Assembly: GCA_019240525.1 (NCBI GenBank) | Contig: JAFAYE010000001.1 | Span: 2,639,300-2,703,299, forward strand | Direction: 5' to 3' | Length of the DNA: 64,000 nt | DNA from: Candidatus Eremiobacterota bacterium | GTDB lineage: Bacteria; Vulcanimicrobiota; Vulcanimicrobiia; Vulcanimicrobiales; Vulcanimicrobiaceae | Shown: positions 4,131-22,594 of the stretch, piece by piece | How positions within the stretch are numbered: the stretch's first letter is position 1 | How the letters are laid out: each line of letters starts with the position of its first letter | Made by a program: the position numbers and the translations under genes | The notes under the pieces: generated by a model | What the model was told of the DNA's origin: nothing | What the model saw: only the letters and a program-made list of their open reading frames with translations | Database searches by the model: none

Positions 4131-4160
4131 TCACTCGCTTCTTGCTGGAAACTACGTTGA

Positions 4161-4691: not shown

Positions 4692-4724
4692 CATCAATCG
4701 CTTTATAAGGATAACGACGTAATC

Positions 4725-5099: not shown

Positions 5100-5155
5100 C
5101 GCCGCAATCCGGCGAACAGGTTCCGGCTTGGGCGCAACTGCTACCACTTCTCGTC

Positions 5156-5596: not shown

Positions 5597-6451
5597 CGCG
5601 GCGGGCGTGCGTCCGGTGAGGCGCTTCATGCAGCGCGCCATGTGACTTTGATTCGCGAACCCGGACTGCTGCGCGATTTGGCTCAGCGGGGTCTTCCCGC
5701 TTGCGATCAGATTTACGGCATACTCGATACGAGTGCGGATGACGTATTGATGAACGGGCACGCCGAGCGAGCGTTTGAAGACGACTTTAAAATGCGATGG
5801 GCTCATGTCGATGACATTGGCAAGTTCCGCAAGCGATAAGTCATGCGCTAGGTGCTCGTTAATGTAGTCGATAACGCGTTGCAGACGGCGACGCGAGAAG
5901 CGATCGTCGTAACGTGCGCCCGCGGCCGGCCGGTAGTTGCGCAAGAGCTGGGCCGCGAGTGCGAGCCCAAGGCTGTCGCCGTAGAGGCGGCCGAGCGGCT
6001 CGGAGGATTCGAGTTCGGCCTTGACCGCCCAACCGATGTGTTCGATGCGAGGATCGCGCACGTGCAATTTCGGTACGATTGCGACGCGGTCGAGATTGAT
6101 GCCCATCGTTTCGGCAGCCGAATGCAGAAGGGCCGGCGTGAGATACATGGAGAGCTTGATCGTTGCCGCTTCGGTTTCCCACACGCGTGGAATTCCCGGG
6201 GGCACGATTTTGACGTCGCCCGGGGCCTGCAGCCGGCGCAGTGTTTCGCCGTTACAGCGGCTGGTGACGAGCAGAGGGCGTCCGATTTGCATGCTGACGT
6301 TGTGACGAACGAACTCTTGCTCGGAACGTCCGGCCGACGCCTCGTAGAGAAACGCGTCGAAACCGTTCCAGTACCGTCCGCCACTGCCCGCGCGCATGCT
6401 GAAGACCATTTCGCGGTCGTCGTGGCGGGCCCACGCGCGTTCTTGCCACAT
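5585..6451 (-). CDS. AraC-family transcriptional regulator
   Basis: 288 residues. The N-terminal 170 residues form a cupin-like ligand region with no close match I can name. The C-terminal 100 residues carry two helix-turn-helix motifs: DLSLAELANVIDMSPSHFKVVFKRSLG and the second around PLSQIAQQSGFANQSHMARCMKRLTG, followed by TPAALR. This layout marks a DNA-binding activator that responds to a small molecule. It stands alone, with no obvious target gene divergent to it. Confidence 0.9.
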   Translation of the reverse strand: MWQERAWARHDDREMVFSMRAGSGGRYWNGFDAFLYEASAGRSEQEFVRHNVSMQIGRPLLVTSRCNGETLRRLQAPGDVKIVPPGIPRVWETEAATIKLSMYLTPALLHSAAETMGINLDRVAIVPKLHVRDPRIEHIGWAVKAELESSEPLGRLYGDSLGLALAAQLLRNYRPAAGARYDDRFSRRRLQRVIDYINEHLAHDLSLAELANVIDMSPSHFKVVFKRSLGVPVHQYVIRTRIEYAVNLIASGKTPLSQIAQQSGFANQSHMARCMKRLTGRTPAALRC

Positions 6452-6471
6452 TCGAACTAGGTGTAACGCAA

Positions 6472-6497
6472 CGGGGCGGTCTGGTGTGACCGCCCCG
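6472..6497 (-). terminator. Hairpin downstream of the HAF-repeat gene
   Basis: CGGGGCGGTC and GACCGCCCCG form a perfect ten-base stem with a six-base loop, 40 bases after the stop of the minus-strand gene ending at 6537. No long T-run follows on either strand, so it may act as a weak or Rho-assisted terminator. Confidence 0.55.
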
Positions 6498-6536
6498 CTC
6501 CGTTTCGCCTCTCAGCGGCGCTTGGGATGGTTCCCC

Positions 6537-7856: not shown

Positions 7857-7948
7857 TGATACTCCTCCATTCATTGGTGTATGGAGACCGTATCAATCGC
7901 GCTGGGCTGACGTCGCCCACGAACGGACGATTAGAGTACAAACGGACG

Positions 7949-8107
7949 CCCTTCGACAAGCTCAGGGTGACACGTTACGACAAGCTCGCCCTTCGACAGG
8001 CTCAGGGTGACACTGTCGTTCACCCTTCGACAGGCTCAGGGTGACAATGTCATGCGCCCTTCGACACAGGCTCGCCCTTCGACAGGCTCAGGGTGACAGG
8101 GGTGACA
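7949..8107. repeat. Short-repeat cluster between HAF lipoprotein and hppA
   Basis: At least four copies of the CCCTTCGACAGGCTCAGGG unit plus a GTGACA tail, some truncated, with irregular spacers. They fill the space between the promoter side of the HAF gene and the 3' end of hppA. Confidence 0.9.
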
Positions 8108-8118
8108 TTTGTGCGCGG

Positions 8119-10227
8119 CTAGCGCAGAAAGGCGACCAAGAGAAGCGCGACGATGTTGAGCACCTTGATCATGGGATTGATCGCAGGGCCGGCGGTGTCT
8201 TTGTAGGGATCGCCGACGGTATCGCCGGTAACTGCGGCTTGGTGCGCGATCGAGCCTTTGCCGCCGTAGTGGCCGTCTTCGATGTATTTCTTGGCGTTAT
8301 CCCACGCGCCACCGCCCGACGTGAAGGAAATGGCGACGAAGAAGCCCGTGACGATGGAGCCGAGCAGAATGCCGCCCATCATTTGCGCGCCCGTATCGCC
8401 CGGCAGCACGCCGAAATACGAGAGCAGCACGACCAGCACGGGTACGCCGACCGGAATCAGGGCGGGCACGATCATCTCGCGCAACGCGGCGCGGGTGACG
8501 ATGTCGACGGTTGTACCGTAGTCGGGGCGCGCCGTGCCCTCCATAATGCCGGGAATCTCGCGGAACTGGCGTCGCACTTCCTCGACGACCGCGCCGCCGG
8601 CGCGTCCGACCGCCTGCATCGAGAGCGAGGCGAAGAGATAGGGCAACAAGCCGCCGATAAAGAGTCCGGTGAGCACGAACGGGTTGCCGATGGCAAAGAG
8701 GTTGCGAACGCCATTCGTGCAGGCAAGCGTTGCGACGCCGGGGCACTTGTGATTGATAAGTTGTTGCAAGAACGATGCGAAGAGGACGATTGCCGCCAGC
8801 GCCGCCGAGCCGATAGCGTAGCCTTTCGTGACCGCCTTGGTCGTATTGCCCACGGCGTCGAGCGGATCGGTGATCTCGCGAACGTCGCGCGGCATGTCGG
8901 CCATCTCCGCGATTCCGCCGGCGTTATCGGTGATCGGCCCGAAGGAATCAATGGCGACGATGATGCCGGCCATCGAAAGCATCGACATCACCGCGATGCC
9001 GACGCCGTAAACGTTCGCAAAGCCGTAACTGACGATGATGCCGACGACGATCACGAGCGCCGGCAACGCGGTCGCCTGCATCGAAACGGCGAGGCCCGCA
9101 ATCATGTTGGTTGCGTGACCCGTGACTGAGGCCTTGGCGATGCTCTGCACCGGCTTGAACTGCGTGCCGGTGTAGTATTCGGTGATGAAAGTGATGAGCG
9201 CGGTAATCACGATGCCGACGACCGCGCAGATAAAGATCGCGTTCACGCTCAGAACGCCGGTCGCTCCCGCAAAGACTTTCTGCGAGGCAAAATAAAAGCC
9301 GACGAGCGCGATAATGCTAGCGACGACCATGCCTCGATAGAGCGCCCCCATGATTTTCGTGCGCCGGACTTGGCCGACGCCCACGAAGATCGCGCCGACG
9401 ATCGATGCGACGATTGAGATTGCACCCAGCAAGAGCGGAAACGTGGTGGCACCAGGCACCGATGCGCCAAAGAGCAGATTTCCCAGCAACATGGCGGCGA
9501 CCGTCGTCACGCAGTACGTCTCGAAGAGGTCTGCGGCCATTCCGGCGCAATCGCCGACGTTATCTCCAACGTTATCGGCGATGACCGCGGGATTGCGCGG
9601 GTCGTCTTCGGGAATGCCCGCCTCGACTTTACCGACTAAGTCGGCTCCGACGTCGGCAGCTTTGGTGTAGATTCCGCCGCCAAGACGGGCGAAGACCGAG
9701 ATCAGCGAGCACCCAAAAGCAAGGCCGACCATGGCATTCAGCGAGGTTGCGGAATCGCCGTTGTTAATGATCTGCAAGATGTAGTAATAGCCCGAGACCG
9801 CGAGCAAACCGAGACCGACGACCAACATGCCGGTGACCGAACCGCCGCGGAAGGCGACGTTGAGGGCCGGCGTTAGGCCGCCGCGTGCGGCTTCGGCGGT
9901 GCGAACGTTGGCGCGCACCGAAACGATCATGCCGATGAAACCGGCCGCGCCCGAAAGAATGGCGCCGATCAGAAAGCCGACCGCGGCTTCCTTCCCCAAC
10001 GTCGGCGCGAAGAGTATGACGACCGCTAAGACGATCGCGACGATACCGATCGTCCGGTACTGGCGCGCCAAGAAGGCCATGGCGCCTTCTTGAATCGCGG
10101 CGGCGATTTCGCGCATACGCTCGTTGCCGGCCGGTTGCCGCACGACCCAAAAGGTCAGCGCGACACCGTAGAGCACGGCAAGGACACCCCCGATGAGGCC
10201 AGCCAGAATCGCTGTCTGTGCGGTCAT
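8119..10227 (-). CDS. hppA: K+-independent membrane proton pyrophosphatase
   Basis: This enzyme hydrolyses pyrophosphate and pumps protons across the membrane. It has 702 residues and about 15-16 membrane helices. The substrate-binding segments [20 protein letters not shown] and [19 protein letters not shown] are intact, as is the C-terminal [18 protein letters not shown]. The subtype-deciding segment reads [10 protein letters not shown], with Lys at the site equivalent to residue 460 and Thr at 463. In this family that marks the potassium-independent H+ pump; K+-dependent forms have Ala. GAGGAGAGGA directly precedes the ATG. Confidence 0.95.
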
Positions 10228-10358
10228 TCCTCTCCTCTAGTGCGGACAAACGGTACGGACAAAAAAGGGGGCCCGGGAAGGGCCGACCAGCTTGCCTACT
10301 CCGGGCACTCGCGCAAGTCCTATCCGGCGGCCGCGACCGCGTGGGCCGAACAGCAAAA

Positions 10359-10382
10359 AGGCCCGCCATACGGCGGGCCTTC
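10359..10382 (-). terminator. Intrinsic terminator of the small lipoprotein gene
   Basis: AAGGCCCGCC and GGCGGGCCTT form a perfect ten-base stem around ATAC. On the minus strand it is followed by a T-run (CCTTTTTGC), 15 bases after the stop of the gene ending at 10398. Confidence 0.85.
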
Positions 10383-10397
10383 TTGGTTTCCCAACGC

Positions 10398-10796
10398 TTA
10401 CAGCGTAACTCTGACCTTGATGATGAGCTCGTTCCCCTTGTGATCCTTCACCAGGAAGCTGCCGCGCCCAATGGCGAGGCCCACGACGGTGAAGACCGTG
10501 TCCTTCGTTCCGTGGTTGGGCGTGATCAAAATGATGCCCTTCGTCTTGTTGTAGACTTTAAAGTTGCCGCCGTAATTCTGCTCGCTGAACTTGCAATCGA
10601 CGATACCGGCCACGACGATATGGATGCGTTTGCCGCAGGTGGATTTAATCTGGTCGCCCGAAAGCGCGACTGCGCTGTTCGTCGATGTGGTCGGAACGTA
10701 CGTCGAGTTCGCGGATTGGCCGCTGCATGCCGCCAATGACAGGGATAGAACGGCAGCGCCAGCGACGATGCCGAGGTAGAGCCGATGGAAAGTCAT
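10398..10796 (-). CDS. Small lipoprotein of unknown function
   Basis: 132 residues. The signal peptide ends in LAA-Cys24. The mature part has a Ser/Thr-rich linker and a compact beta-rich domain (ITPNHGTKDTVFTVVGLAIGRG, FLVKDHKGNELIIKVRVTL). It resembles in size and layout the lipoprotein at 40651-41073, which also has Cys pairs and a Thr-rich strand pattern; the two could share an immunoglobulin-like fold, but this is inference. I chose the ATG at 10796 from the AGGAG eight bases upstream. A strong terminator follows. Confidence 0.7.
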   Translation of the reverse strand: MTFHRLYLGIVAGAAVLSLSLAACSGQSANSTYVPTTSTNSAVALSGDQIKSTCGKRIHIVVAGIVDCKFSEQNYGGNFKVYNKTKGIILITPNHGTKDTVFTVVGLAIGRGSFLVKDHKGNELIIKVRVTL

Positions 10797-10883
10797 GTGA
10801 TGCTCCTTATTCACATTGGGTAGGTAGGTTGAAAAGATTCCCCTCGCGCGCAAGAAGAAACGCTACTGCATGATGTTAATTTT

Positions 10884-10899
10884 CGTTAACGCGTTAACG
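10884..10899. promoter_or_regulatory. Perfect 16-bp palindrome, candidate operator
   Basis: CGTTAACGCGTTAACG is a perfect palindrome ending 10 bases before the ATG of the flavoprotein gene. A further half site, GTTAA, lies at 10875. It probably binds a dimeric repressor and may overlap the ribosome binding region. The regulator is unknown. Confidence 0.55.
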
Positions 10900-10909
10900 C
10901 GGCATCGCA

Positions 10910-12118
10910 ATGGAATCCACTGAGTTTCTCATCGTCGGTTGCGGGCCCGCCGGGGCCACGGCTGCCCGTGAGGCAGCGCGCGCCGGCGTGGAAACTGTCG
11001 TGCTCGAGCGCGATGCCGTTGTCGGGCAGAAACGCGTCTGCGCCGCCGGACTGCGCCCCGGCTTCTGCGAGACATTCGATTTGCCGCGAGAGATCGTCCA
11101 CTGCGACACGCCGCGACTCGCGTTCTTCGATGCGAACAACCGCGAATACGAAGTCGCTTTCGGGCCAGGCCATACCACGACGCGCGAGGAGCTCGATGGG
11201 GCGATGGCTGGGCTTGCTTTGAGAGAGGGCGCGCAATTGCGAACGCGTGCGCTTTTTCGCGCGATTAGTCGCGACGGCGAACGTATCGTCGTCGATTATG
11301 CCGATCTCGCCGCCGGTGAGCGTCGTGCTATTTCGGCCCGCTACGCGTTCTTCGCGACCGGGGCCGCGGCGCAGCTGGATACGGCGCCGTTCGGGCGGGT
11401 GGCATGGTCGCGATGGCGCGAGGGATTACTGACGACGCTGCAGTATCGCGTCTACCTCGCCGGCCGCGCGGCCGCAGTTGCCTATCGAACGCTGGAACTC
11501 CATTATTATCTTGCGCGCGACGGTCGTCAGATCGTCGCCTGGATGTTTCCGAAGCGAGATCACCTGGCGATCGGCTTAGGCATCATGGGAAAGATTCGCG
11601 GGGACCTGCTGCGCGCCGAGCTCGATGCGTTTACCGCGCGCGTGCGAACGCGTCTCTATGCCGATGCCGGCGTGCGCGCGGTGAAGACCGAAGGCCACCT
11701 GTTGTATGGCGGCGCGGTGCGGCCGATGCTCAGCGACGACGGCGTGCTCGTCGGCGGCACCGCCGCCGGTTTGGTGGACGCGACCAACGGCGAAGGCATC
11801 TTCGAAGCGGCGATGAGCGGCCGCTTCGCGGCAAATGCCGTGATGCAGTCGCGGACGAACGCGAAGCGTGCGAGCGAGCGCTATGCATCGCTGGTTGGCG
11901 GCAGGTTTCGCCGTCGTCTCACGGATCGTGTGCGCATCATGCGCTATCTCGAGCGGCGACCGCGGCGGTTCGCGCTGCTCTTCGAACAGCTCGCGAGGAC
12001 TCCACGCCTGGCCGAGGTATTGCTCAAGGAAGACTGCAAGCGAACGATGAGCGATCGTCTATACCTTTATCAACAGGCAATGAGATTTGGGATTCGCACT
12101 ATCGCATGCCGTGGCTAA
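10910..12118 (+). CDS. Geranylgeranyl-reductase-family flavoprotein
   Basis: 402 residues with an N-terminal Rossmann FAD motif (LIVGCGPAGATAAREAARAG) and acidic ERD turn. A later DDGVLVGGTAAGLVDATNGEGI segment matches the FAD-contact region of geranylgeranyl reductases, and the C-terminus is helical. The family reduces isoprenoid chains of menaquinones, lipids or chlorophyll. The substrate here is unknown and no isoprenoid genes are adjacent. Its 3' end overlaps the sigma factor start, so the two are probably translated together. A palindromic operator candidate lies just upstream. Confidence 0.8.
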   Translation: MESTEFLIVGCGPAGATAAREAARAGVETVVLERDAVVGQKRVCAAGLRPGFCETFDLPREIVHCDTPRLAFFDANNREYEVAFGPGHTTTREELDGAMAGLALREGAQLRTRALFRAISRDGERIVVDYADLAAGERRAISARYAFFATGAAAQLDTAPFGRVAWSRWREGLLTTLQYRVYLAGRAAAVAYRTLELHYYLARDGRQIVAWMFPKRDHLAIGLGIMGKIRGDLLRAELDAFTARVRTRLYADAGVRAVKTEGHLLYGGAVRPMLSDDGVLVGGTAAGLVDATNGEGIFEAAMSGRFAANAVMQSRTNAKRASERYASLVGGRFRRRLTDRVRIMRYLERRPRRFALLFEQLARTPRLAEVLLKEDCKRTMSDRLYLYQQAMRFGIRTIACRG

Positions 12119-12830
12119 TGCATCTCTTTCGCGCGAAGAGGTCATTCATAAGTATTTGCATTTGGTCAAGTACGTCGCCGGAAGGATCTCGGTTCATCTC
12201 CCCGCCAACGTCGATATCAACGATTTGATCAACGACGGCGTCTTCGGCTTGATGGACGCCATCGAAAAGTACGACGATTCACGATCGGTCAAGTTCGAAA
12301 CCTACGCGATTACTCGTATTAACGGCTCGATTCTGGACGCGCTGCGGTCGCTCGACTGGGTGCCCCGCACCGTCCGCCAGCGCGCGCGCCAGATGGAACG
12401 GGCATTTGAAAGCTTGGAGTTCGAACTCGGCCGCGACCCGACCGACGAAGAGCTCGCGCAGCGTCTCGAAGTCTCAATGCGCGAGCTCGATGAAGTGCGG
12501 GCGCGTTTGCGTGGAACCAACGTCGTCTCGCTGGAGGAACCGTTGGCGAGCGGCGGCGATCAGGAACTCTTTGTCGGCGACACGATCGAAGATACCGAGA
12601 GCGACATTACCAGGGAGATCGAACGCGACGAGCTTCGGCGCGAACTCGTTCAAGAAGTGGAGGCGCTCGCACCGCAAGAACGGACGGTCATTCGCCGATA
12701 CTATTTCAAGGGCGAAACGCTGAAGGAGATCAAGGCCGACATGGGCGTCTCGGAGTCACGGGTGTCGCAAATTCACGCTCAGGCAGTCATGCACTTGCGT
12801 CAGCGTCTGAGGTCGAGCGCCGCCGAGTAG
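12087..12830 (+). CDS. FliA/WhiG-type RNA polymerase sigma factor
   Basis: Up to 247 residues with the region order of group 3 sigma factors. Region 2 contains YLHLVKYVAGRISVHLP, DINDLINDGVFGLMDAIEKYD and FETYAITRINGSILDALRSLDW. Region 3 contains GRDPTDEELAQRL, and region 4 ends in GVSESRVSQIHAQAVMHLRQRL. It matches FliA/WhiG proteins. No flagellar, chemotaxis or anti-sigma gene is seen nearby. The start is uncertain: TTG at 12087 overlaps the preceding gene by 32 bases, while GTG at 12111 overlaps by eight and loses only non-conserved residues. Confidence 0.9.
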   Translation: MGFALSHAVANASLSREEVIHKYLHLVKYVAGRISVHLPANVDINDLINDGVFGLMDAIEKYDDSRSVKFETYAITRINGSILDALRSLDWVPRTVRQRARQMERAFESLEFELGRDPTDEELAQRLEVSMRELDEVRARLRGTNVVSLEEPLASGGDQELFVGDTIEDTESDITREIERDELRRELVQEVEALAPQERTVIRRYYFKGETLKEIKADMGVSESRVSQIHAQAVMHLRQRLRSSAAE

Positions 12831-12836
12831 TTCGCG

Positions 12837-13367
12837 CTAGGCGCGACCCTGCGGCGGTGCTTGGGCGCCGGTCAGCGCATCACCGATGGCTTGAGTTACG
12901 GCGGCTTTGCCTTGCTCGATTGCGCCGGCCGCCGCCGTTTTCGCCTGTTCGGTCATCTGCTCGCCAAGGCGTCCGACGTTCTTGCGCTCGATCTCGCTGA
13001 CCGGTAAGCAGAGGCCGACGAGAAATCCAACCGCGATTGCGCCAATGGCAACGCCCAATGGATTTTGCGCGGCGTAGGAGCGTGCGGCACGCAACTGTTC
13101 GGCCGCGTCTTCACCCGTCGGCAGCGCGGCGGCCGCGTTTTGGGCGGTGCTTTTTGCGCTCGACGCCGCGCCGCCAAGCGCGCCGGTTGCCGAGCCGATG
13201 ACATCGCTCACGCGGCCTTTGATGGCTTCGACGCGTTCGTTGACGGCATCGCGGGCGCGTGCGGGAACGTCGGTCTTATAGGCAAGCGCTTCGACCGTTT
13301 CGCCCATGCGGCTGCGGGTCTCGTCGATTTCCTGTCTGATGGCGTCGGGATCTTGGCTTTGATTCAC
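12837..13367 (-). CDS. DUF3618 protein
   Basis: 176 residues. The N-terminus DPDAIRQEIDETRSRMGETVEALAYKTDVPARARDAV is the DUF3618 signature. A long amphipathic Ala-rich helix (about 50-85) follows, then one membrane helix (NPLGVAIGAIAVGFLVGLCLP) and an Ala-rich tail. Such proteins occur with YqjE- and YqjD-like genes and are thought to act at the membrane, possibly under stress. The GTG start at 13367 has AAGGAG six bases upstream. It is the last gene of a three-gene minus-strand set. Confidence 0.8.
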   Translation of the reverse strand: MNQSQDPDAIRQEIDETRSRMGETVEALAYKTDVPARARDAVNERVEAIKGRVSDVIGSATGALGGAASSAKSTAQNAAAALPTGEDAAEQLRAARSYAAQNPLGVAIGAIAVGFLVGLCLPVSEIERKNVGRLGEQMTEQAKTAAAGAIEQGKAAVTQAIGDALTGAQAPPQGRA

Positions 13368-13401
13368 AAATGTCTCCTTAGACGGTCGTTGTCGAGTGGT
13401 A

Positions 13402-13815
13402 TTAGCGGCCGCGACGAATACTGGATTGCACGGTCGCGATATCTTCTTTGATGGTCTTCATCGTCTGCTGCGGGACTGGCGTACCGATCTTCTTCAGTTC
13501 CGCGCGGCCGTTCCGTACGGCGAACGCCGCTATTGCGGCATAGAGGCAGGTAACGATCAGCGCCGACGCCCAGAGCGGAAGAACCAGGCCCAGCGCAATG
13601 ATGAGCAGAGCGGTTAGCGCTCCGAAGGCGCCGAGCGCAAAAATTGCGGCAACGCCGAACGCGGCCCCCGGGGCGGCGGCCTTCTTGAGGGTTGCGAGAA
13701 TCTCGGCGCGAGCGAGCTCGACTTCTTGGCGAACGAGCAGTGACGTTTCGGCCGCAAGCTTTTGTAAAAGCTCGGGAATCGACCGATCTGCTTCGGCGGG
13801 GGCGTCGCTTCTCAT
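13402..13815 (-). CDS. YqjE-like (holin superfamily III) membrane protein
   Basis: 137 residues. An N-terminal soluble helix (SIPELLQKLAAETSLLVRQEVELARAEI) precedes two membrane hairpin helices (about 60-110), the layout of the phage-holin-like YqjE/Act_tran family. The ATG at 13815 overlaps the stop of the preceding gene as ATGA, indicating coupled translation; the longer GTG form would overlap more. Its neighbours encode DUF3618 and DUF883-like proteins, a common trio. No lysis role is implied by the context. Confidence 0.75.
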   Translation of the reverse strand: MRSDAPAEADRSIPELLQKLAAETSLLVRQEVELARAEILATLKKAAAPGAAFGVAAIFALGAFGALTALLIIALGLVLPLWASALIVTCLYAAIAAFAVRNGRAELKKIGTPVPQQTMKTIKEDIATVQSSIRRGR

Positions 13816-14183
13816 GGGGTGTTCGTCGTTTCCTCGGACGACCACATGTCACGGCGTGCGGCGGTCGATTTCAGCAAACGCGAGGCGAGAATCCCGACGG
13901 CCAGTCCGGCGCCCACAACGGCCAACGGCTGCTGGCGGCTGAACTGCTCGGCATCGGCGACCATCTGTTTGAGGGGCGTACCTTCAATATAGGATCCGAC
14001 GCGATCGACCACATCGGCGCCGCGCTCGGCGAAGTCGGCGGCCATCGCCGTCGTCGGATCGTTACGCAGCTGGTCCGCAACCGTGCGAATCGTCTGCGCC
14101 GTCGTGCGAATCCGCCGCCCTGAATCCGCGGAGCGGCTCTCAATTTGCTCGGTGACGTAGCTGGAAAAATCAGTTGTGCTCAT
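13812..14183 (-). CDS. DUF883-like membrane-anchored helical protein
   Basis: About 123 residues from the Met at 14183, in MSTTDFSSYVTEQIE. It is mostly alpha-helical and ends in a hydrophobic helix (QQPLAVVGAGLAVGILASRLL) with a basic tail, the layout of ElaB/YqjD/DUF883 proteins that tether to the membrane by their C-terminus. It is the first gene of the trio and overlaps the YqjE-like gene by ATGA. The family call rests on architecture and neighbours. Confidence 0.6.
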   Translation of the reverse strand: MSTTDFSSYVTEQIESRSADSGRRIRTTAQTIRTVADQLRNDPTTAMAADFAERGADVVDRVGSYIEGTPLKQMVADAEQFSRQQPLAVVGAGLAVGILASRLLKSTAARRDMWSSEETTNTP

Positions 14184-14237
14184 AGGCGACATGGTACCCG
14201 CGATTGGGGGAGCCGAACCAAGCAACCTGCGACCCCG

Positions 14238-15599
14238 CTACTGGTCGTCGGGGGCGAAATAGTTTTCGGCGCGGTTGTGCATGAAAAAATTCGGCGGCTT
14301 TGGCGCCGCTATATTTGCGAACCGGCGCGGTTTTCGATTGAAGTCGAAGCAGTCGGTGGCCGGCGAGGCGGCCCGCGCGTCGGCATCCGACATCTGCCGC
14401 AGGCCGAACAGATCTTCGGCGAACCGTAACACGCTCGCCGTCTCGTACTGCACGTGCGACACGTGATGGTGCTTTGCGTAGGGCGAGATCACCAGCAGCG
14501 GCACGCGGAAACCGGTGCTGTCACGTCCCAGGTACGGCGGGGCGACGTGATCGTAGAGGCCGCCCCAATCGTCCCATTGCACGAAGATCGCCGTCGAATT
14601 CCAGAACTTGCTTTTGCCGACCGTGTCAACGAGTGCGGCGACCCATGAGGGTCCGTAATTTCCCGGGCAATTGACGTGGTCGGAGTCGTCGCAGACCGGC
14701 GTGATCCAAGTGAAGTTGGCGAGGTGACCGGCGCGTACGTCGGTGATGAACTTCCAATTCGGTGAAACGACGTACTTCCAATCGGCGCCATAACGAATGT
14801 GCCGGATCGCGCGAAAGCTCGACCAGGCGGTTCCGTCGCCGCTCGAGGGGCTGCCGTAGGTAGCCGCATAGAAGCGCCATGACAGCTTCGCGGCGTCGAC
14901 TTCGTCGGCGAGCGTCGTGTAATCGTAGCACGGATGGATTGAGGGTCCGTCAGGATTGCGAGTTATCGTGATCGTCGCAACGGTATCGTATTTTCCGCCG
15001 CCGCAGCCCCATTCGCCGGTTGGCAAGTCGTCGCTCCACGCAGCTTGCGCGGCGATGACGTATTGGTGCGCGACGAAGCTCTCGTCCAACTGGGATTGAA
15101 ACATCCGATCGGCGACGACCCACTCGGCGGCCATGTCCCAGTAGGGCTTCGACTCATTATGCGGCACGTAAACGTATTCGGGGTTCTTGGGGCCGCCGTA
15201 CGAGGTCTCATTGTTGAATCCGTTCATGCGGCATCCCGTGCCTCGAACGATTCCGGTTCCATTGCAGGCGGCGTACATCGCTTGGACCGAGTGGTCGATT
15301 TCGTAGGGGTCGCCGAGCCGCCGCGGCTGCAATCTGATTTTCTGGCCGTGCGAATTCTCGCCGACGGGGACGGTATCGGCGCCTGGATAGCCCTGAAACA
15401 TGTTGTCGAAACTACGATTCTCTTGCACGATGTAGATGACGTGCGTTATTTTTCCGGCTCCGGTCTCGCTGAGCGAGTGAAGCGCGGAGTCGCTTTGCAT
15501 GTAGGGCAGCGAGGATTGCGAGCCGACCGAACACGCGGAAAAGACCATTGCGCTTGCAACGGCAAGGAGCGCAGAACGTCGGAGATGCGGCGTTTTCAT
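14238..15599 (-). CDS. Phosphoesterase-family (PF04185) lipoprotein, copy 1
   Basis: 453 residues, lipobox FSA-Cys23. The catalytic-type motifs of the phospholipase C/acid phosphatase family are present: HVIYIVQENRSFDNMFQGYPG near the N-terminus and FVQWDDWGGLYDHVAPP in the C-terminal half, plus VPLLVISPYAK. The family removes phosphate or phosphocholine groups from lipids or other esters; the substrate here is unknown. It is closely similar to the copy at 30748-32115 and more distant from the copy at 15854-17278. The two copies here are divergent across a repeat cluster. Confidence 0.9.
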   Translation of the reverse strand: MKTPHLRRSALLAVASAMVFSACSVGSQSSLPYMQSDSALHSLSETGAGKITHVIYIVQENRSFDNMFQGYPGADTVPVGENSHGQKIRLQPRRLGDPYEIDHSVQAMYAACNGTGIVRGTGCRMNGFNNETSYGGPKNPEYVYVPHNESKPYWDMAAEWVVADRMFQSQLDESFVAHQYVIAAQAAWSDDLPTGEWGCGGGKYDTVATITITRNPDGPSIHPCYDYTTLADEVDAAKLSWRFYAATYGSPSSGDGTAWSSFRAIRHIRYGADWKYVVSPNWKFITDVRAGHLANFTWITPVCDDSDHVNCPGNYGPSWVAALVDTVGKSKFWNSTAIFVQWDDWGGLYDHVAPPYLGRDSTGFRVPLLVISPYAKHHHVSHVQYETASVLRFAEDLFGLRQMSDADARAASPATDCFDFNRKPRRFANIAAPKPPNFFMHNRAENYFAPDDQ

Positions 15600-15722
15600 A
15601 ACAACAGTCCTCGCTCTTACAACGGAACGATGATTGGAACGGTTCGCGCCGGGCGGATGATAGGCCCGCGTTCAGAAGAAGAGTACATGAGTTGTCCGAG
15701 GCCAACGGGGCGGCCGGTCGGC

Positions 15723-15818
15723 GCTTCGACAGGCTCGCCCTTCGACAGGCTCAGGGTGACAAGATGTTGACGGGCTCGCCCTTCGACAGGCTCGCCCTTC
15801 GACAAGCTCAGGGTGACA
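15723..15818. repeat. Short-repeat cluster between divergent phosphoesterase genes
   Basis: Four full or partial copies of CCCTTCGACAGGCTCAGGG-type units in the 254-base divergent intergenic region. Promoters of both genes must lie around or within it. Confidence 0.9.
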
Positions 15819-15853
15819 AGAAGTTGCGGCGTTTCTAATCGAGGAGTGGTCTC

Positions 15854-17278
15854 TTGAATTCGTTTTATCGTCAGATTTTGTGCGGTAGCGTTGCATTTGC
15901 AATGCTGACTGCGTGCGGCGGCCTTCGACAGGCGCAGAATGACACGATGCTGCCATCGGCGTCGGGCAGCTCGCAGCGCGTCGCCTTCGAGGGACGCCGC
16001 TCTTCGGGATCGAGTTTGATAAAGCACGTGATCATCATGGTGCAGGAGAATCGCAGTTTCGACGATTTTTTTGCGACATTTCCCGGTGCCGATGGGACGA
16101 CAACCGGAAAAACTAAGAAGGGGACGATCAAGCTCAAAGCAGTCGATTTGGAGTCGCCGTGCGATTTCGGCCATTCGCGACAAGGCTTCGTGACCGATTA
16201 CGACGACGGAAAGATGGACGGTTTTGAGGACGAAGGCCAACTTCACTGCAACGGGTTGGCGGGAAAGCGACCGTACCAATACGTGAAGCCGGCGCAGATT
16301 GCTCCCTATTGGGACATCGCCAAGGATTACGTGCTCGCCGACGAGACGTTCCAAACACAAGGCAGCGGCAGCTTTACGGCGCACCAGGATCTCATTCGCG
16401 GCGGCACGACGTTCGATCAAGCACAAACTGAAAGTTTGGTGGACGATCCGTCGGCGTCGCCGTGGGGCTGCGACGCGCCGCAGGGAACCGTTACGCCGTA
16501 CTTGTTGTGGAGCGGTAGTGCGATCACGCGGCATGCTAACGGCCCAGCGCCCTGCACTCACGATTTTCCGGGATCGGGCGAATACTATCAGACGTTGCGC
16601 GACTTGCTCGACGCAAAATCGGTATCGTGGAAGTACTACACACCTCCGGTGAGCGGCTCCGGCCGCTACTGGAGCGCCTTCGACGCGATCTATCCCGTGC
16701 GGTATGGCCCTGAATGGAAAACGAACGTTTCGACTCCCGAAACAAACATCTTTACCGATATTTCCGGGCAATCGCTTCCCTCAGTATCGTGGTTGATTCC
16801 CGACGAAGGCAACTCCGATCATCCCGGCCCCGGAGTGGATCAGGGACCGTCGTGGGTTGCCAGCGTGGTCAATGCCATCGGAGAGAGCTCCTATTATTGG
16901 CCGAATACCGCAATCGTGATCGTTTGGGACGACTGGGGCGGATTTTACGATCACGTGCCACCGCCGATCTCAGATCATTGGGGAGGCCTGGGATTTCGCG
17001 TGCCGATGCTGATCGTATCGCCGTACGCGCGCGAGGCGACGCCGAGCACGCCCGGCTACATTTCGCCGACGCAGTACGAATTCGGAAGCATTCTGCGCTT
17101 CGTGGAAGATAATTGGAATCTGGGCCGGCTGGGAACGACGGATAAGCGCGCAAACAGCATCGCCGACTCTTTCGATTTCAAGCAAAAGCAGCGCGCCTTC
17201 ATTCAGATTCCCTCCAGCCGTTCGCGCTCGTATTTCATGCACGAGCGGCCGTCGTACCGCCCGGTGGATACGGAGTAG
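15854..17278 (+). CDS. Phosphoesterase-family (PF04185) lipoprotein, copy 2, with repeat-derived N-terminus
   Basis: 474 residues from a TTG at 15854, which has GAGGAG ten bases upstream. Lipobox LTA-Cys21. The motifs HVIIMVQENRSFDDFFATFPG and IVWDDWGGFYDHVPPP mark the same hydrolase family as the genes at 14238 and 30748. Directly after the lipid-modified Cys, residues 23-30 (LRQAQNDT) are encoded by an in-frame copy of the genome's intergenic repeat (15920-15945). The repeat thus forms part of the surface linker. Confidence 0.88.
   Translation: MNSFYRQILCGSVAFAMLTACGGLRQAQNDTMLPSASGSSQRVAFEGRRSSGSSLIKHVIIMVQENRSFDDFFATFPGADGTTTGKTKKGTIKLKAVDLESPCDFGHSRQGFVTDYDDGKMDGFEDEGQLHCNGLAGKRPYQYVKPAQIAPYWDIAKDYVLADETFQTQGSGSFTAHQDLIRGGTTFDQAQTESLVDDPSASPWGCDAPQGTVTPYLLWSGSAITRHANGPAPCTHDFPGSGEYYQTLRDLLDAKSVSWKYYTPPVSGSGRYWSAFDAIYPVRYGPEWKTNVSTPETNIFTDISGQSLPSVSWLIPDEGNSDHPGPGVDQGPSWVASVVNAIGESSYYWPNTAIVIVWDDWGGFYDHVPPPISDHWGGLGFRVPMLIVSPYAREATPSTPGYISPTQYEFGSILRFVEDNWNLGRLGTTDKRANSIADSFDFKQKQRAFIQIPSSRSRSYFMHERPSYRPVDTE
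15920..15945 (+). repeat. Short repeat copy inside a lipoprotein gene
   Basis: GCCTTCGACAGGCGCAGAA plus TGACAC is a diverged copy of the intergenic unit. It lies in frame just after the lipobox of the phosphoesterase gene and encodes LRQAQNDT. Confidence 0.85.
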
Positions 17279-17284
17279 GCGGCG

Positions 17285-18469
17285 CTACGGGGTCGACGGC
17301 AGACAGCCGTTAGGAACGGCCTTGCAGCTGGTGATTCCGGTGGGGGCTTGGCCGGTGGCAAAGGGTGAGCCCGGAACGGGCGTCAGCATTCCCGAGCGCG
17401 CGTCGATGGAGAAGGCCGACACATCGTTCGCACCGGTATTGGTTACGTAAACAAAGCGGTTTGATGGGTCGACTACGACGTCGAAAGGCGTGCTGCCGAC
17501 GCTGTATGGCGAGCCCGCTACCGCGATTAACGCACCGGTTGCCGGATCGATGCGATACGCCGAAACGTTGTACGAACTATTGTTGGCGACGTACGCGAAG
17601 CCGTTCTTGGCGTCGGCGACGCCGATCGGCGCGGAACCTGCGCTAAACGGCGATCCCGGCGCTTGGGTCAGTGCGCCCGTCGAAGCATCGATCGTGTACG
17701 CGGAAACGGCGCCGCTCAAAAAATCGGTGACTTGGAGAAATTTGCCATTTTGCGTCACTGCTACGCCGTAGGGCCACGCGCCGGCGGCGAACGGCGAGCC
17801 GGCAATCGCGGTGAGAGCGCCGGTTGTTTCGTCGATCTGATAGGCTGAAACTGCGGCGTCTTTGAGGTTGGCAACGTAGGCATACGGCGCTTTCGGATCG
17901 ACGGCGATATATTCGGGACCATCGGCAGTTGGAAACGGCGAACTTTTCAATGCTTTTAGTGCACCGGTTTGTTGGTCGATGGCGTAGCCGGAGATGTCGG
18001 TGGAGTCGAAGTTGGTAACGTAGGCGAACTTGCCATGATTGTCGATCCCAACGTCGTGCGGAAGCATGCCCGCTTTGAACGGCGAACCTGGAATCTTTGT
18101 CAATGCTCCAGTTTGTGGATTCACGGCAAATGCAGTGACGTTGTGCGATTCATTGTTCGGAACATAGGCAAACTTGCCGGTGGGATCGATCGTGATGTTG
18201 TTGGGGCCTTTGCCCGTGTGGAACGATCCCGAGACGCTTGTAAGCGCACCGGTCGCCGTGTCGATCGAATACGCCGCGATCGCGTTGGAGTTTGAGTCGA
18301 CGACATACAAGAACTCCGCGCTCGCCTTCGCCGCCGCTGAGGAAGCGAACGTTGACGTCGCTTGCGGTGGCACCCCTCCCGCACAGGCAGAGAAGAGGGC
18401 AGCGACTGCTGCACCGACCGCCGCGTGCAATATGGGACGCGATGCTTTTGCTTTCGTCATTCGGGCCAT
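17285..18469 (-). CDS. Lactonase-type seven-bladed beta-propeller lipoprotein
   Basis: 394 residues, lipobox FSA-Cys29. It has seven or more repeats of the form DPTGKFAYVPNNESHNVTAF, then TGALTKIPGSPF, as in the YVTN/6-phosphogluconolactonase (PF10282) family. Such propellers are often surface proteins rather than enzymes. Catalytic residues of true 6-phosphogluconolactonase cannot be judged here. It is convergent with the phosphoesterase gene, with only six bases between stops. Confidence 0.88.
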   Translation of the reverse strand: MARMTKAKASRPILHAAVGAAVAALFSACAGGVPPQATSTFASSAAAKASAEFLYVVDSNSNAIAAYSIDTATGALTSVSGSFHTGKGPNNITIDPTGKFAYVPNNESHNVTAFAVNPQTGALTKIPGSPFKAGMLPHDVGIDNHGKFAYVTNFDSTDISGYAIDQQTGALKALKSSPFPTADGPEYIAVDPKAPYAYVANLKDAAVSAYQIDETTGALTAIAGSPFAAGAWPYGVAVTQNGKFLQVTDFLSGAVSAYTIDASTGALTQAPGSPFSAGSAPIGVADAKNGFAYVANNSSYNVSAYRIDPATGALIAVAGSPYSVGSTPFDVVVDPSNRFVYVTNTGANDVSAFSIDARSGMLTPVPGSPFATGQAPTGITSCKAVPNGCLPSTP

Positions 18470-18504
18470 GTGCGGCGGCGCATGGGTCGCGCCCTTGTCT
18501 CGTG

Positions 18505-18586
18505 CCCTTCGACAGGCGCACGATGATAATTTTAGCTCAGGATGATCCTTCGACAGGCTCGCCCTTCGACAAGCTCAGGATGACAC
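18505..18586. repeat. Short-repeat cluster overlapping the 3' end of the MFS gene
   Basis: Three copies or part copies of the unit. The last lies over 18561-18586, and its TGTCATCCTGAGC complement contributes the final codons and the TGA stop of the transporter gene. Confidence 0.88.
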
Positions 18587-19849
18587 GGAGGGTGAAAAGG
18601 CGAGGCCGCGGTTCTCTTTTCGGACTCGATAGCCGATCGCGGTTAGGATCAAGACGCACGTCACGATAACGGCGGCTGCGACGGCGAGGGCGGCGGCATA
18701 GTTTGGCGCGCCGCCGGCCGGCGCGAGTTTTATTGCGAGAATCGCTTCGATCTGCGGCACGCCGGCAGCAATGAGATTTCCGAACTGATATGTGAATCCG
18801 GGAAACGTTCCGCGGACGTCGGCCGGCGAGAGCTCGTTGAGGTGCGCGGGGATCACGCCCCAGCAGCCTTGCACGGCCAGCTGCATCACGAAGACGCCTG
18901 CCGCCAGCGCTACTGCGGTGTGGCTAAGCGCCCAGAGCGGGATCGCGCAGCCGGCCAGCGCGGCCGCAGTCATGACCATAAGGCGGCGCCCATAGCGTTC
19001 GGAAATTGCACCCATGGCCGTCGAGCCGCAGATCGCGCCGATCGCACCGATGATGGCCAAGAGTGACGTGGCACCGGGCGCGAAGCCGTGTTGCTTCTGC
19101 AAGAAGGTGGCGTAAAGATCTTGCGTGCCGTGCGACAGGGCATTGAGTGCAGCCATGAAGGCGATAGCGTAGACGAAAAGCGGCCAGTGCGCCGCGAGAC
19201 TCTTGAGCAAGAAGCGCGGCGTGGCCCCGATCTTTTGCGCGCGACCGGCGAGCCACACGGGCGACTCGGGAACGCCGGAGCGAATGTAGAGAATCAGCAG
19301 CGCGGGCAATGCGCCTAACACGAAGAGCGCGCGCCAGTCCCAATGCGTGAACGTGAAGACGCCGTAGTAGGCTGCTGCGGCAAGCAAAAAGCCGCACATG
19401 TAGCCGCTTTGGAGCATGCCGCCGATAAAGCCGCGCCGATGTGCCGGTAGCGATTCCATCGTCAGGGCCGCGCCGAGTCCCCATTCGCCGCCCATCGCTA
19501 CCCCGTACAGCGCGCGCAAGATGAGGAACGTCGCGAAGTTGGGCGAGAACGCAGTTAGGAGCTGAATCAGCGAATAGAAGCCGATATCGATCATCAGCGG
19601 CGTACGTCGTCCGTACCGATCGCCGAGCCAGCCAAAAAAAAGCGCCCCGATCGGGCGGCAGGCGAGCGTGAGCGTTATGGCAACAGCCACCTCGGCGACG
19701 CTCTTGTTGAACGTCGTCGCGATGCGTGTGATGACAAACGTGAGCAGAAGAAAGTCGAACGCGTCGAGCATCCAGCCCAGAAAAGACGCGATGAACGTTC
19801 GACGGGCGGCGGGCGTCACGCTCGCGCTTTTGGCATACCTCGCGGACAT
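18575..19849 (-). CDS. Major facilitator superfamily transporter
   Basis: 424 residues with 12 predicted helices. The loop 2-3 signature GWLGDRYGRRTPL, the segment RALYGVAMGGEWGLGAALTMESLP and the mid-loop GVPESPVWL place it with the metabolite:H+ symporters related to sialate and carboxylate permeases. The substrate is unknown. The ATG at 19849 lies at the edge of a repeat copy (AAGGATG) and the TGA stop comes from another, so both gene ends abut repeats. A later in-frame start is possible because the first 15 residues are hydrophilic. Confidence 0.85.
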   Translation of the reverse strand: MSARYAKSASVTPAARRTFIASFLGWMLDAFDFLLLTFVITRIATTFNKSVAEVAVAITLTLACRPIGALFFGWLGDRYGRRTPLMIDIGFYSLIQLLTAFSPNFATFLILRALYGVAMGGEWGLGAALTMESLPAHRRGFIGGMLQSGYMCGFLLAAAAYYGVFTFTHWDWRALFVLGALPALLILYIRSGVPESPVWLAGRAQKIGATPRFLLKSLAAHWPLFVYAIAFMAALNALSHGTQDLYATFLQKQHGFAPGATSLLAIIGAIGAICGSTAMGAISERYGRRLMVMTAAALAGCAIPLWALSHTAVALAAGVFVMQLAVQGCWGVIPAHLNELSPADVRGTFPGFTYQFGNLIAAGVPQIEAILAIKLAPAGGAPNYAAALAVAAAVIVTCVLILTAIGYRVRKENRGLAFSPSVSS

Positions 19850-19933
19850 CCTTCGACAGGCTCACCCTTCGACAAGCTCAGGGTGACACAGCGCCCTTCG
19901 ACAGGCGCACCCTTCGACAAGCTCAGGGTGACA
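19849..19933. repeat. Short-repeat cluster upstream of the MFS gene
   Basis: Four copies of the CCTTCGACAGGC / CTTCGACAAGCTCAGGGTGAC unit in tandem. They fill the gap between the transporter start and the end of the next minus-strand gene. Confidence 0.9.
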
Positions 19934-19941
19934 GGGGACGC

Positions 19942-20865
19942 CTAAGGGGAGGCGCTGGGAGATGTCGTTGACGATGGAGTGGGAGATGGAGTGGGCGTGG
20001 TGCCGGGAGGCACTTGTGCGCCGTAGAGTGCGAGCAGCCAGACCTGGCTGTGCCGCACCATGACTCTCGGAACGTTGAACGAGAACTCGATGACGTTCGG
20101 CTGCGGCGTGGTGTATTTCTGATAGCTGCTGCCGAGCATGAACTGATCGATCCGCTTGCCGCGCAGCGACGACTCGTTGTAGAGCTGAAGCGCGAAGACG
20201 CGGCCGGTATACTGCATCGCCGGAAGCGTGTACTGCACGGTCGTGCCGCCGTTGAGTTGAAAGTCCGTATTGCTCTGCAAGCGGATCGCGACGAGCGGCG
20301 TGATATGCATGAACATCGGATTCGGATTGGTCATGTTCGGAAGATCGTGCGGCAACGGCTCCACTTGCACCGTCAGCATGCCGCCGGGAGACGGCGTGGG
20401 CGTGGCACTGTCGCTATCGTCTTCATCGTCGGACGAGGCGCTCGGCGAGGGGCTAGGCGTGGGACTCGGCGTCGCGGTCGCCTTCGACCCGGGCGACGAC
20501 GACGGCGCGGGTGTCGGCATGTTGAACGAGATACTGCAAGTAAACTGTTGAGTGAACTCCGTTACCAGCGGGCACTTCATGCCGCTGGGACCTTGGCCGA
20601 TCGGATATTGCGCTTCGTTGGGTGCAAGCGTCGCGCCGGGGTTGGCGAGTTGTTCTTGTCCGTTCATTCCAACGTTGGGGCCGGAAATCTGATTGTTGCC
20701 CATACCGGAGATACCGCCGCCGCCGATGTTGCCGTTCATCGAACCGGGCTGCGTGACCGGAGGCGCCATCTCGCCGCCCATGCCGCTATCGAGCCCGGAC
20801 ATCCCTTGGCACGAGCCCAAAAGCAAAGCGAGCCCGGCGAAAAGGACGCGCGCATCGTACCACAT
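19942..20865 (-). CDS. Pro/Ser/Thr-rich lipoprotein of unknown function
   Basis: 307 residues from the Met at 20865; lipobox LGS-Cys19. A Gly/Met/Asn-rich stretch (20-75) is followed by a conserved-looking Cys pair, a low-complexity PSPTPSPSPSASSDDEDD linker, a beta-rich domain of about 130 residues (ITPLVAIRLQSNTDFQLNGGTT onward) and a second PTPSPTPS tail. The tail could cross the wall or a surface layer. It starts four bases after thrS, so it is probably cotranscribed; a start at 20886 overlapping thrS is possible. Confidence 0.7.
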   Translation of the reverse strand: MWYDARVLFAGLALLLGSCQGMSGLDSGMGGEMAPPVTQPGSMNGNIGGGGISGMGNNQISGPNVGMNGQEQLANPGATLAPNEAQYPIGQGPSGMKCPLVTEFTQQFTCSISFNMPTPAPSSSPGSKATATPSPTPSPSPSASSDDEDDSDSATPTPSPGGMLTVQVEPLPHDLPNMTNPNPMFMHITPLVAIRLQSNTDFQLNGGTTVQYTLPAMQYTGRVFALQLYNESSLRGKRIDQFMLGSSYQKYTTPQPNVIEFSFNVPRVMVRHSQVWLLALYGAQVPPGTTPTPSPTPSSTTSPSASP

Positions 20866-20869
20866 CGTC

Positions 20870-22594
20870 TTACTGCTTCGTTTCAACTATTCTCCGCAAC
20901 TCTTCGACGAACGACTCGACGGAAATTGTACGCTTCTCTTCGACGCCGCGCTGATTCACGTTCACAGTACCGTCCACAACCTCTTGTTTACCCGTTACTA
21001 AGATGTAGGGCACTTTCTGGGTCTTCCAGTGCCGTATCTTGTAGCCGAGCTTCTCATTACTTTCGTCGAGCTCTACCCGAAAGCCCGCTCCCTCTAGCCG
21101 TGCCGCCACCTCGCGCGCATAACTCCGTTGTTCCTGAGAAATCGCTGTGACGACGACTTGGATCGGAGCCAGCCATGCTGGAAAGGCGCCGCCATAATGC
21201 TCGATCAGTATACCGAAGAAACGCTCCAGCGAGCCCGCAAGTGCCCGGTGAATCATCACGGGCGTCTTGTCGAGCCCGTCGGCATCTCGATACTTTAGCG
21301 CAAATCGAGCAGGCAAGACGAAGTCAACTTGCACGGTGCCGAGCTGCCACGGCCGGCCGATCGCGTCACGCACGTTGATATCGAGCTTGGGACCGTAGAA
21401 CGCCCCGCCTTCCTCGTCGACCTCGAAGGGAAGCTCATAGCGATCGAGCGCTTTGCGAATGGCCTCTTCGGCGATCGCGTCCGTCGGCGTGCGTGCGTTT
21501 TCCGCGCGCCGCGAGAGCACGTATCGTACGTCGCTGAAGCCAAAGGCGGTCATGAGGCGACGAGCTTCCTCGACGGTCTGCTCGAACTCGTGCTGGAGTT
21601 GTTCGGGCGTGCAGAAGAGATGCGCGTCGTCTTGGGTGAAGCCGCGCACCCGCGTCAGACCGTGCATCACGCCCGACCGTTCGAAGCGATAGACCGTGCC
21701 GAACTCCGAGTAGCGCAGGGGCAGGTCGCGATAGCTGTGCAGGCGGCTTCGGTAGATGAGAATGTGTCCTGGACAGTTCATCGGCTTGAGCCGAAACGTC
21801 TGATTCTCGACTTCGATCGGTCCAAACATGTTCTCGGCGAAATTTTCGATATGTCCGGAAATTTCGTAGAGGCGCTCGGAGACGATGTGGGGCGTGACGA
21901 CGGGCTGGTAACCGCGCTCGCGCAAGCCCTCGCGAATAAAGTTTTCGATGATGCCGCGGACGATCGCGCCGTGTGGATGCCAGAATACCAAGCCTCCGCC
22001 GGCGTCTTCTTCGATCGAGAAGAGATCGAGCTCAGCTCCGAGCTTGCGATGGTCGCGTCTCTGCGCTTCTTCGAGGCGAGAAAGGTAGGCCGTAAGGTCG
22101 GCTTGGGAATGCCAGGCGGTGCCGTAAATGCGTTGCAGCATCGGATTCTGCTCGTTGCCGCGCCAGTATGCGCCGGCGACGGTGGTGAGCTTGAATGCGC
22201 CGATCGCGCCGGTTGACTCGGCGTGGCCGCCGCGGCAAAGGTCGGTGAAATCGCCGATGCTGTAGAGCGTGATCGGCTCGCCCTCGGGGATCTCACGCGC
22301 GATCTCGAGCTTGTACGGATTATCCTTGAAGGCGTCGACCGCTTCTTGCCGAGTAACGCCACGTCCGACCATCGGATAATTCGCCTCGACAATCTCGCGC
22401 ATGCGGCTTTCGAGCCGTTGCAGATCGTCGGCTGTGAACGGCGCGACGCGATCGAAATCGTAGTAAAAGCCGTTCTCGATCGAGGGGCCAATGGTCGGTT
22501 TGGCATCCGGAAAGAGGTCTTGCACGGCGTACGCAAGTACGTGCGCAGCCGTATGGCGGAGCTCCGGAAGAGACGGCCGGCGATCGTCAGGCAT
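20870..22594 (-). CDS. thrS: Threonyl-tRNA synthetase without TGS domain
   Basis: It charges tRNA-Thr and edits mischarged Ser. It has 574 residues, against about 640 for forms with a TGS domain; the protein starts close to the editing domain (LRHTAAHVLAYAVQDLFP). Second editing motif: TDLCRGGHAESTG. The class II catalytic core includes RLKPMNCPGHILIY (zinc Cys), FGTVYRFERSGVMHGLTRVRGFTQDD and MIHRALAGSLERFFGILIEHYGG, followed by a C-terminal anticodon-binding domain. The lack of TGS looks natural because no matching frame continues upstream. Confidence 0.95.
   Translation of the reverse strand: MPDDRRPSLPELRHTAAHVLAYAVQDLFPDAKPTIGPSIENGFYYDFDRVAPFTADDLQRLESRMREIVEANYPMVGRGVTRQEAVDAFKDNPYKLEIAREIPEGEPITLYSIGDFTDLCRGGHAESTGAIGAFKLTTVAGAYWRGNEQNPMLQRIYGTAWHSQADLTAYLSRLEEAQRRDHRKLGAELDLFSIEEDAGGGLVFWHPHGAIVRGIIENFIREGLRERGYQPVVTPHIVSERLYEISGHIENFAENMFGPIEVENQTFRLKPMNCPGHILIYRSRLHSYRDLPLRYSEFGTVYRFERSGVMHGLTRVRGFTQDDAHLFCTPEQLQHEFEQTVEEARRLMTAFGFSDVRYVLSRRAENARTPTDAIAEEAIRKALDRYELPFEVDEEGGAFYGPKLDINVRDAIGRPWQLGTVQVDFVLPARFALKYRDADGLDKTPVMIHRALAGSLERFFGILIEHYGGAFPAWLAPIQVVVTAISQEQRSYAREVAARLEGAGFRVELDESNEKLGYKIRHWKTQKVPYILVTGKQEVVDGTVNVNQRGVEEKRTISVESFVEELRRIVETKQ

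Follow-up and report, generated by a model that had tools for sequence, protein, structure and literature searches.

A REP-like palindromic repeat at the 3' end of an MFS transporter gene in a Candidatus Eremiobacterota genome, and its probable role as stop codon donor

The MFS transporter gene described here ends inside a copy of a REP-like repeat. We put a probability of roughly 0.8 on the reading that an element lying beside gene 3' ends overlies the end of this gene and supplies its stop codon, and that a second repeat cluster, upstream of the gene, is the 3' element of the preceding gene. This reading is based on the position and frame of the copy, the orientation bias of copies at gene ends, covariation in the stem, the recurrence of the same arrangement at other genes, orthologous gene ends without the repeat and a conserved gene order. 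The window, that is the whole stretch of 64,000 nucleotides that was analysed, belongs to contig JAFAYE010000001.1 of assembly GCA_019240525.1. Genomes are cited by G numbers (G000 for the genome of the window) and individual loci by L numbers.

RESULTS

A repeat copy contains the stop codon of the MFS gene

The features of the locus are as follows.

18506-18560, plus strand: other parts of the MFS 3' cluster, a degenerate copy (18506-18526) and a half copy (18547-18560)
18563-18583, plus strand: REP-like copy giving the MFS stop, CCTTCGACAAGCTCAGGATGA, read from the side of the gene as TCATCCTGAGCTTGTCGAAGG
18575-18577, minus strand: TGA stop of the MFS gene within this copy, read directly in the sequence
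18575-19819, minus strand: MFS transporter gene with the likelier start (Pfam; starts of eight same-genus orthologues)
19850-19931, plus strand: second cluster, with half copies 19850-19863 and 19895-19908 and full copies 19866-19886 and 19911-19931
19942-20886, minus strand: preceding gene, Ser/Pro-rich and lipoprotein-like by eye, its 3' end adjoining the second cluster
20870-22594, minus strand: thrS, threonyl-tRNA synthetase, the upstream anchor of the locus in relatives

The longest open reading frame of the MFS gene (18575-19849, minus strand, 424 aa from the first ATG) matched the Pfam families Sugar_tr (E 1e-37) and MFS_1 (E 2e-33), and the match to the MFS_1 profile reached position 344 of 347. 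The top NCBIfam model was TIGR00891 (sialate:H+ symport subfamily), with 362 bits vs a cut-off of 553. The gene ends with GTG-TCA-TCC-TGA, and TCA-TCC-TGA (18583-18575) lies inside the copy 18563-18583. Direct reading thus bears out the sequence-only reading, which had placed the stop and the last codons within a repeat copy; the codons covered in this way are the last two.

It had further been proposed that the repeat replaced the native gene ends, possibly with loss of C-terminal residues. The copy does overlie the very end of the gene, but alignment with homologues indicated no such loss, since same-genus ends without the repeat nearly coincide with it. The protein ends in ...ENRGLAFSPSVSS, and its counterpart in G004 in ...ENRGLAFAPSAS. 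The G004 gene closes with GCG-TCA-TAG, one residue shorter, and has no repeat in the 127 nt shown; at the 3' end it comes close to being a homologue with the same end and no repeat. Past the conserved E-x-R motif, the tail measured 7-10 aa in the five same-genus sequences with a TCAYCCTGA stop (own, G016, G014, G010 and G003) and 6-25 aa in eight other same-genus sequences (G009, G001, G008, G011, G004, G006, G015 and G017). This comparison comprises 13 sequences, own included, among which G015 and G017 are just 49% identical; G002 was omitted as its contig ends first. At the MFS stops of G010 and G016 the element is represented by its left end (TCATCCTGAGC) alone. Because orthologues without the repeat end at almost the same place, the MFS C-terminus is taken to be complete, and the tail lengths rule out a truncated C-terminus. 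Judged by its sequence, the MFS transporter is intact.

Form, number and distribution of the repeat

A search of the window with CCTTCGACARGCTCAGGRTGA gave 20 matches with up to 3 mismatches vs none in 100 shuffles. The genome held 130 copies with up to 1 mismatch, 97 and 33 on the two strands, and the reversed control gave 0. All 20 copies of the window lie on the plus strand (882-19931, 46079 and 62644-62745), vs 97 and 33 in the genome, and the orientation of copies near 3' ends tends to go with gene direction. In G025, which belongs to another genus, 54 and 49 copies (up to 2 mismatches) were counted on the two strands. The repeat was present in 18 of 18 genus genomes searched and in 8 of 42 others. 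Two long stretches of contig C1 of G000, at about 0-0.37 Mb and 1.05-1.75 Mb, are nearly free of the 130 copies found with up to 1 mismatch, with one copy in the first (at 0.166 Mb) and none in the second; they lie roughly opposite each other.

On the strand of the gene the element reads TGTC-AYSCT-GAGCYTGTCGA-AGSRT. Its left edge was TGTC in 177 and CGTC in 1 of 190 copies in G000, and TGTC or CGTC in 39 of 39 copies in G003 and in 20 of 25 in G025, the remaining five having AGTC. The right edge is variable (commonest TGAGCC in G000, 21/190; TGACCA in G003, 4/39). The sister genus represented by G025 (L213-L232) has CG-rich stems (ACGCT/AGCG), and 13 of its 25 copies carry the CGTC tag. In the congeneric loci L140, L144, L145 and L152 (G003, G014, G016 and G006) the same kind of place is occupied by a second variant of the loop, TCATCCTGAGC(G/A-rich)AGTCGAAGG.

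REPs sensu lato are high-copy palindromes of 20-40 bp, and the element agrees with this description. Two variable stem pairs covary: each was paired in 112 of 119 cluster representatives vs 88.3 and 69.6 after shuffling, and none of 2000 shuffles reached the observed pairing. The remaining stem columns are nearly invariant or do not covary. Columns 4-7 paired with 19-22 in 112-117 of the 119 representatives and column 3 with 23 in 60, while columns 8:18 and 9:17 formed a G-A/A-G mismatch in 117. Idealised single elements folded at -11.9 to -14.1 kcal/mol as RNA (z -2.9 to -4.1). The compound unit of 55 nt at the MFS 3' end folded no better than shuffles (RNA z +0.46, DNA z +0.02), and the cluster of 85 nt upstream of the MFS gene hardly better (RNA z -1.6).

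Among the genomes searched, no match to the Y1/RAYT transposase (PF01797) was obtained in any of the 18 of the genus, some of which are 63-79% complete, or in any of the 37 of the bacterial family; the 13 genomes out of 60 that did match lie outside this family. A RAYT-driven origin of the GTAG REP / RAYT type was set aside, as without a PF01797 match in the genus no RAYT gene flanked by the repeat was found.

Copies are placed and oriented with respect to gene 3' ends

The own genome contributed 40 stretches to the analysis of copy placement, one next to the window and the other 39 surrounding listed copies; G003 (same genus) and G025 (another genus, one contig) contributed 20 each. Genes were called by a purpose-made codon-usage script trained on the own genome, not by a standard gene finder. 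In accordance with REPs sensu lato, the copies in these stretches were mainly intergenic and downstream of genes, in unidirectional or convergent spaces. Where the nearest downstream copy lay 0-30 nt from a gene end (n=58, three genomes), it had the opposite orientation in 45 cases and the same in 13 (p = 3e-5), and no orientation bias was observed at 5' ends (14 vs 17, p = 0.72). A copy was present in 30 of 42 convergent intergenic spaces vs 50 of 170 tandem and divergent ones (p = 9e-7), figures of which only the comparison between classes counts, because the stretches were chosen for holding copies. The unselected window alone did not have the convergent excess (1/3 convergent vs 3/19 tandem and 3/7 divergent spaces, one of the divergent cases, 62644, really lying inside a gene). 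Many copies in G025 come as inverted pairs between two convergent genes, with one copy of the pair turned to each gene.

Such a placement, oriented, close to 3' ends and enriched between convergent genes, together with the hairpins of single elements, would also be expected if the copies were intrinsic transcription terminators of the genes that they follow. A hairpin followed by a T run is however rare, TTTT being present within 14 nt downstream in just 4 of 254 copies, and neither the direct tandem arrays nor the intragenic coding copies fit a terminator. We therefore rejected this explanation as quite improbable. The number of copies, their 3' position and their restriction to some lineages could likewise be expected of recognition sequences of the DNA-uptake type that gather at gene ends by biased uptake. 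Yet a recognition word does not need covarying stems, and known uptake words are shorter than the element, so that this possibility is very improbable.

Stop codons and protein tails coded by the repeat at other genes

Thirty gene stops were found inside copies in the sampled stretches of the three genomes, 16 in G000, 7 in G003 and 7 in G025; a few of these reading frames are short and low-scoring. Eighteen stops are of the MFS type (TCA-xxx-TGA), nine end in (P/A)ST(G/S)S(G/A) and three in CHPE(P/L)VEG. Ten own-genome proteins with a repeat stop were scanned for domains, and several were covered to or nearly to the C-terminus, among them TsaD, pantoate ligase, an ATP-dependent DNA ligase, an aminotransferase, uracil-DNA glycosylase and a CofH-like radical SAM enzyme. 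In the same scan L172 had no match and L171 matched part of GH1 only. The latter frame (L171:1608-3773, 721 aa) combines an incomplete GH1 portion with a solute-binding one, has one copy in frame inside it and another as its end, and may be a fusion or a misread frame.

Orthologues of two of these genes were compared. The M28 peptidase has seven same-genus orthologues with full 3' ends, all without an element at the stop; six end four codons earlier and one is of equal length. For the CofH-like gene (L182:1830-2990; orthologues L257-L268 and L279), the script marked five of the 13 same-genus sequences, the own one among them, as having an element at the stop, and by eye the tail was element-coded in another frame in five more (G002, G004, G014, G001 and G017). 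The tail of the same conserved protein therefore appears to be written differently by the repeat between species.

These data bear on the possibility that the repeat is no true stop donor, in that a TGA native to the gene came first and the element then took shape around it through gene conversion or a chance resemblance. Of the 291 genes called in the G000 sample, 128 end in TGA, more than in either other stop, and the TCA TAG of G004 stands at the same place after GCG, so that the TCA of the MFS gene may be native. Against this, genes end in three different frames of the element, and the six M28 orthologues without the element stop four codons before the repeat-coded end. We consider a native TGA unlikely, and keep to the donation of the stop by the element.

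The start of the MFS gene

The first ATG of the frame (19849-19847) abuts the half copy 19850-19863, giving GAAGG|ATG, and to this extent the sequence-only reading, which had put the start at the edge of a copy, was correct. As the actual start this ATG is unlikely. All eight same-genus orthologues for which the N-terminus is available (L010-L017) have a stop in frame further upstream, and after this stop the earliest ATG, GTG or TTG falls exactly on query residue 11 in six of them and on residue 9 or 10 in the other two (positions given assuming no gaps). Residue 11 in the own genome is GTG (19819-19817), which because of these orthologues is probably the likelier start. Several homologues from other genera (e.g. 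L021, L022, L024 and L027) point the other way, since their frames are open and a start could lie near query residues 2-4. A GAAGG that touches the ATG directly would leave no spacing for a Shine-Dalgarno role. At L015 of G003 the GAAGG of the element stands 7 nt before the likely MFS ATG (GAAGG-ATGACCT-ATG) and could act as a Shine-Dalgarno sequence.

Gene order around the MFS gene

Synteny was read from the contigs of 14 relatives, of which those of G014, G011, G004 and G006 do not show the upstream genes. In all seven contigs that contain the three genes (G009, G003, G001, G008, G010, G016 and G026), thrS, the lipoprotein-like gene and the MFS gene are adjacent and in this order, with the MFS gene inverted in G001; G002 had the same order as far as its contig end. 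The lipoprotein-like gene had no match in Pfam or NCBIfam. The copies upstream of the MFS gene sit where the 3' element of this preceding gene would, and the copy 19911-19931 lies 10 nt beyond its stop in the orientation typical of a gene 3' end.

As a further interpretation it had been suggested that the MFS gene was picked up between the two clusters as a cassette. On such a reading the gene would have been inserted as a unit, and the clusters would act as recombination or transposition ends. The clusters on both sides do share their orientation, elements or remnants flank the MFS gene also in G003, G014 and G016, and the gene is missing from the locus in the congeners G007 and G005. However, with a pattern allowing up to 1 substitution the script detected no copy next to the MFS gene in G009, G001, G008 and G026, where the neighbours are nevertheless kept. 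By eye, G026 has a diverged variant upstream of the gene and G001 a possible remnant, so that G009 and G008 are the clean cases in which gene and order are present without the repeat. At the gene-free junctions of G007 and G005, the kind of place for which a comparison of synteny had been proposed, the script found no repeat either. The codon score of the MFS gene (82nd percentile of 205 called genes) is native-looking, and the same repeats occur at the 3' ends of many unrelated genes. Since its neighbours are kept in relatives without repeats beside it, the gene is hardly a repeat-borne cassette and most likely was not brought in by the repeat. Synteny without repeats has largely refuted the cassette, which codon usage also contradicts, and we regard it as extremely improbable.

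The repeat codes for linkers in lipoproteins

Two genes of the window contain the repeat within their coding sequence.

15922-15942, plus strand: in-frame degenerate copy encoding LRQAQND directly after the lipobox cysteine, in a phosphoesterase-family lipoprotein (15854-17278)
62573-63934, plus strand: lipoprotein gene whose post-lipobox linker (..LLTACGALRQAQGDSALPQAQGDN..) is coded by the tandem copies 62644-62745

The tandem copies of the second gene read ..CGALRQAQGDSALPQAQGDNALRQAQGDS... Intragenic copies in the sampled stretches often read LRQAQDD just after the lipobox cysteine, and LRQAQ(D/G)D linkers were found in the lipoprotein loci L175, L184, L193, L202, L203, L281-L287, L290-L295, L298 and L299. 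A pattern search of the 18 genus genomes, with 3-14 nt between element and cysteine-like codon, gave 59 matches in 14 genomes. Counted from the listing, the gap was 6 nt (C-x-x-LRQAQ) in 14 cases, 9 nt in seven, 5 nt in one and 7 nt in none, and the C-x-x-L spacing was preferred; a second heap of eight at gap 11 came mostly from arrays of the own genome, in which it is the following element that matches the pattern. By eye, a hydrophobic signal peptide and lipobox were present at 12 of the 14 gap-6 sites and at three of six fetched gap-9 sites. The seventh gap-9 site is in L175 and was read in the sampled stretches, with which some other pattern sites also coincide. As several are paralogues, the independent linker events are fewer, by our estimate perhaps five or six.

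DISCUSSION

The best explanation of the MFS gene end is a REP-like element of about 25 bp, palindromic and with a conserved TGTC/CGTC left edge, which would have multiplied in one genus of Ca. Eremiobacterota and in some sister genera. Its copies, arriving presumably by transposition or recombination, would settle next to gene 3' ends, in most cases in the orientation in which the gene reads on into TCAYCCTGAGCYTGTCGAAGG. One copy probably replaced the last MFS codons together with the native stop, and its TGA, being in frame, then served as the stop codon; relative to the nearest MFS end without the repeat, the net change would be about one residue. The copies may be transcribed and act as 3' hairpins of the mRNA, with stabilisation or attenuation of the next gene as conceivable effects, and most are probably tolerated rather than selected.

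The cassette is thereby replaced by a general rule: gene ends in these genomes often overlap a REP-like element, and annotated C-termini and starts at such places therefore need care. How such repeats spread is a question to which the present family also contributes material: it is REP-like, no transposase was found for it, and orthologous sites differ in whether they have a copy.

The coding of lipoprotein linkers is more surprising than the MFS stop. A wider reading, which we regard as possible rather than probable, is that a lineage-specific palindromic repeat repeatedly rewrites C-termini in three frames (SS*/SP*, PSTGSG*, CHPELVEG*), for the same gene differently between species, and that it also writes the linker C-x-x-LRQAQDD behind the lipidated cysteine of unrelated lipoproteins, with one preferred place and frame. 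There, co-option might have made it a tether or a site of crossover in the shuffling of lipoproteins. Exaptation could be tested directly at the lipoprotein-linker site.

The MFS case is an ordinary instance of a known phenomenon, stop donation by REPs, in a host lineage for which we found no description. A literature search with the DNA words of the element and the encoded peptides gave no relevant description among the matches listed (word matches were judged by title), and a search on Eremiobacterota repeats found no description of the element for this lineage. Of the literature on REPs and stop codons, on palindromic elements in lipoproteins and on ribosome stalling at REPs, two papers proved useful, PMC3733652 and PMC12306157. 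According to the available part of the text of Di Nocera et al. 2013 (PMC3733652), REPs adjoin gene 3' ends, flanking ORFs often take their stop codon from the terminus of a GTAG REP, and REPs that coincide with a predicted N-terminus in fact precede the true start.

The closest resemblance in tag is to the CGTC-tagged REP superfamily as described in that part of PMC3733652. These repeats, too, are palindromic with TGTC/CGTC at one end, lie beside gene 3' ends and between convergent genes, and overlap ORF ends and predicted starts. They are without an associated transposase; for the present element a search for PF01797 gave no match in the genus. In contrast to the stem of 8-9 bp and loop of 4-5 nt given there, the present element has a short stem with an inner invariant G-A/A-G mismatch pair; no equivalent of the short unpaired tail, mostly CCA, was seen, and direct tandem arrays, unlike in the CGTC repeats as described there, are common in the present genus. 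The host phylum is not among the five given for CGTC repeats in the same part of the text. Because the tag fits and the stem/loop geometry and the tail do not, we call the element REP-like and do not place it in any CGTC family.

With the GTAG-tagged REPs, or BIMEs with RAYT transposases, in the same source, the element shares its high copy number, palindromic form, position at gene 3' ends and role as stop donor. It differs in its TGTC/CGTC tag and in the lack of a PF01797 match in the 18 genus genomes. The REPs of E. coli, according to the available part of the RepRanger paper (PMC12306157, citing earlier work), are hairpin elements at or up to 15 nt from the stop; here the stop can fall inside the left arm of the element itself. 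Rickettsia palindromic elements (RPE), as outlined in the available text of PMC3733652, are also read in frame inside proteins, whereas the present element recurs at particular sites, directly behind the lipobox cysteine and at C-termini.
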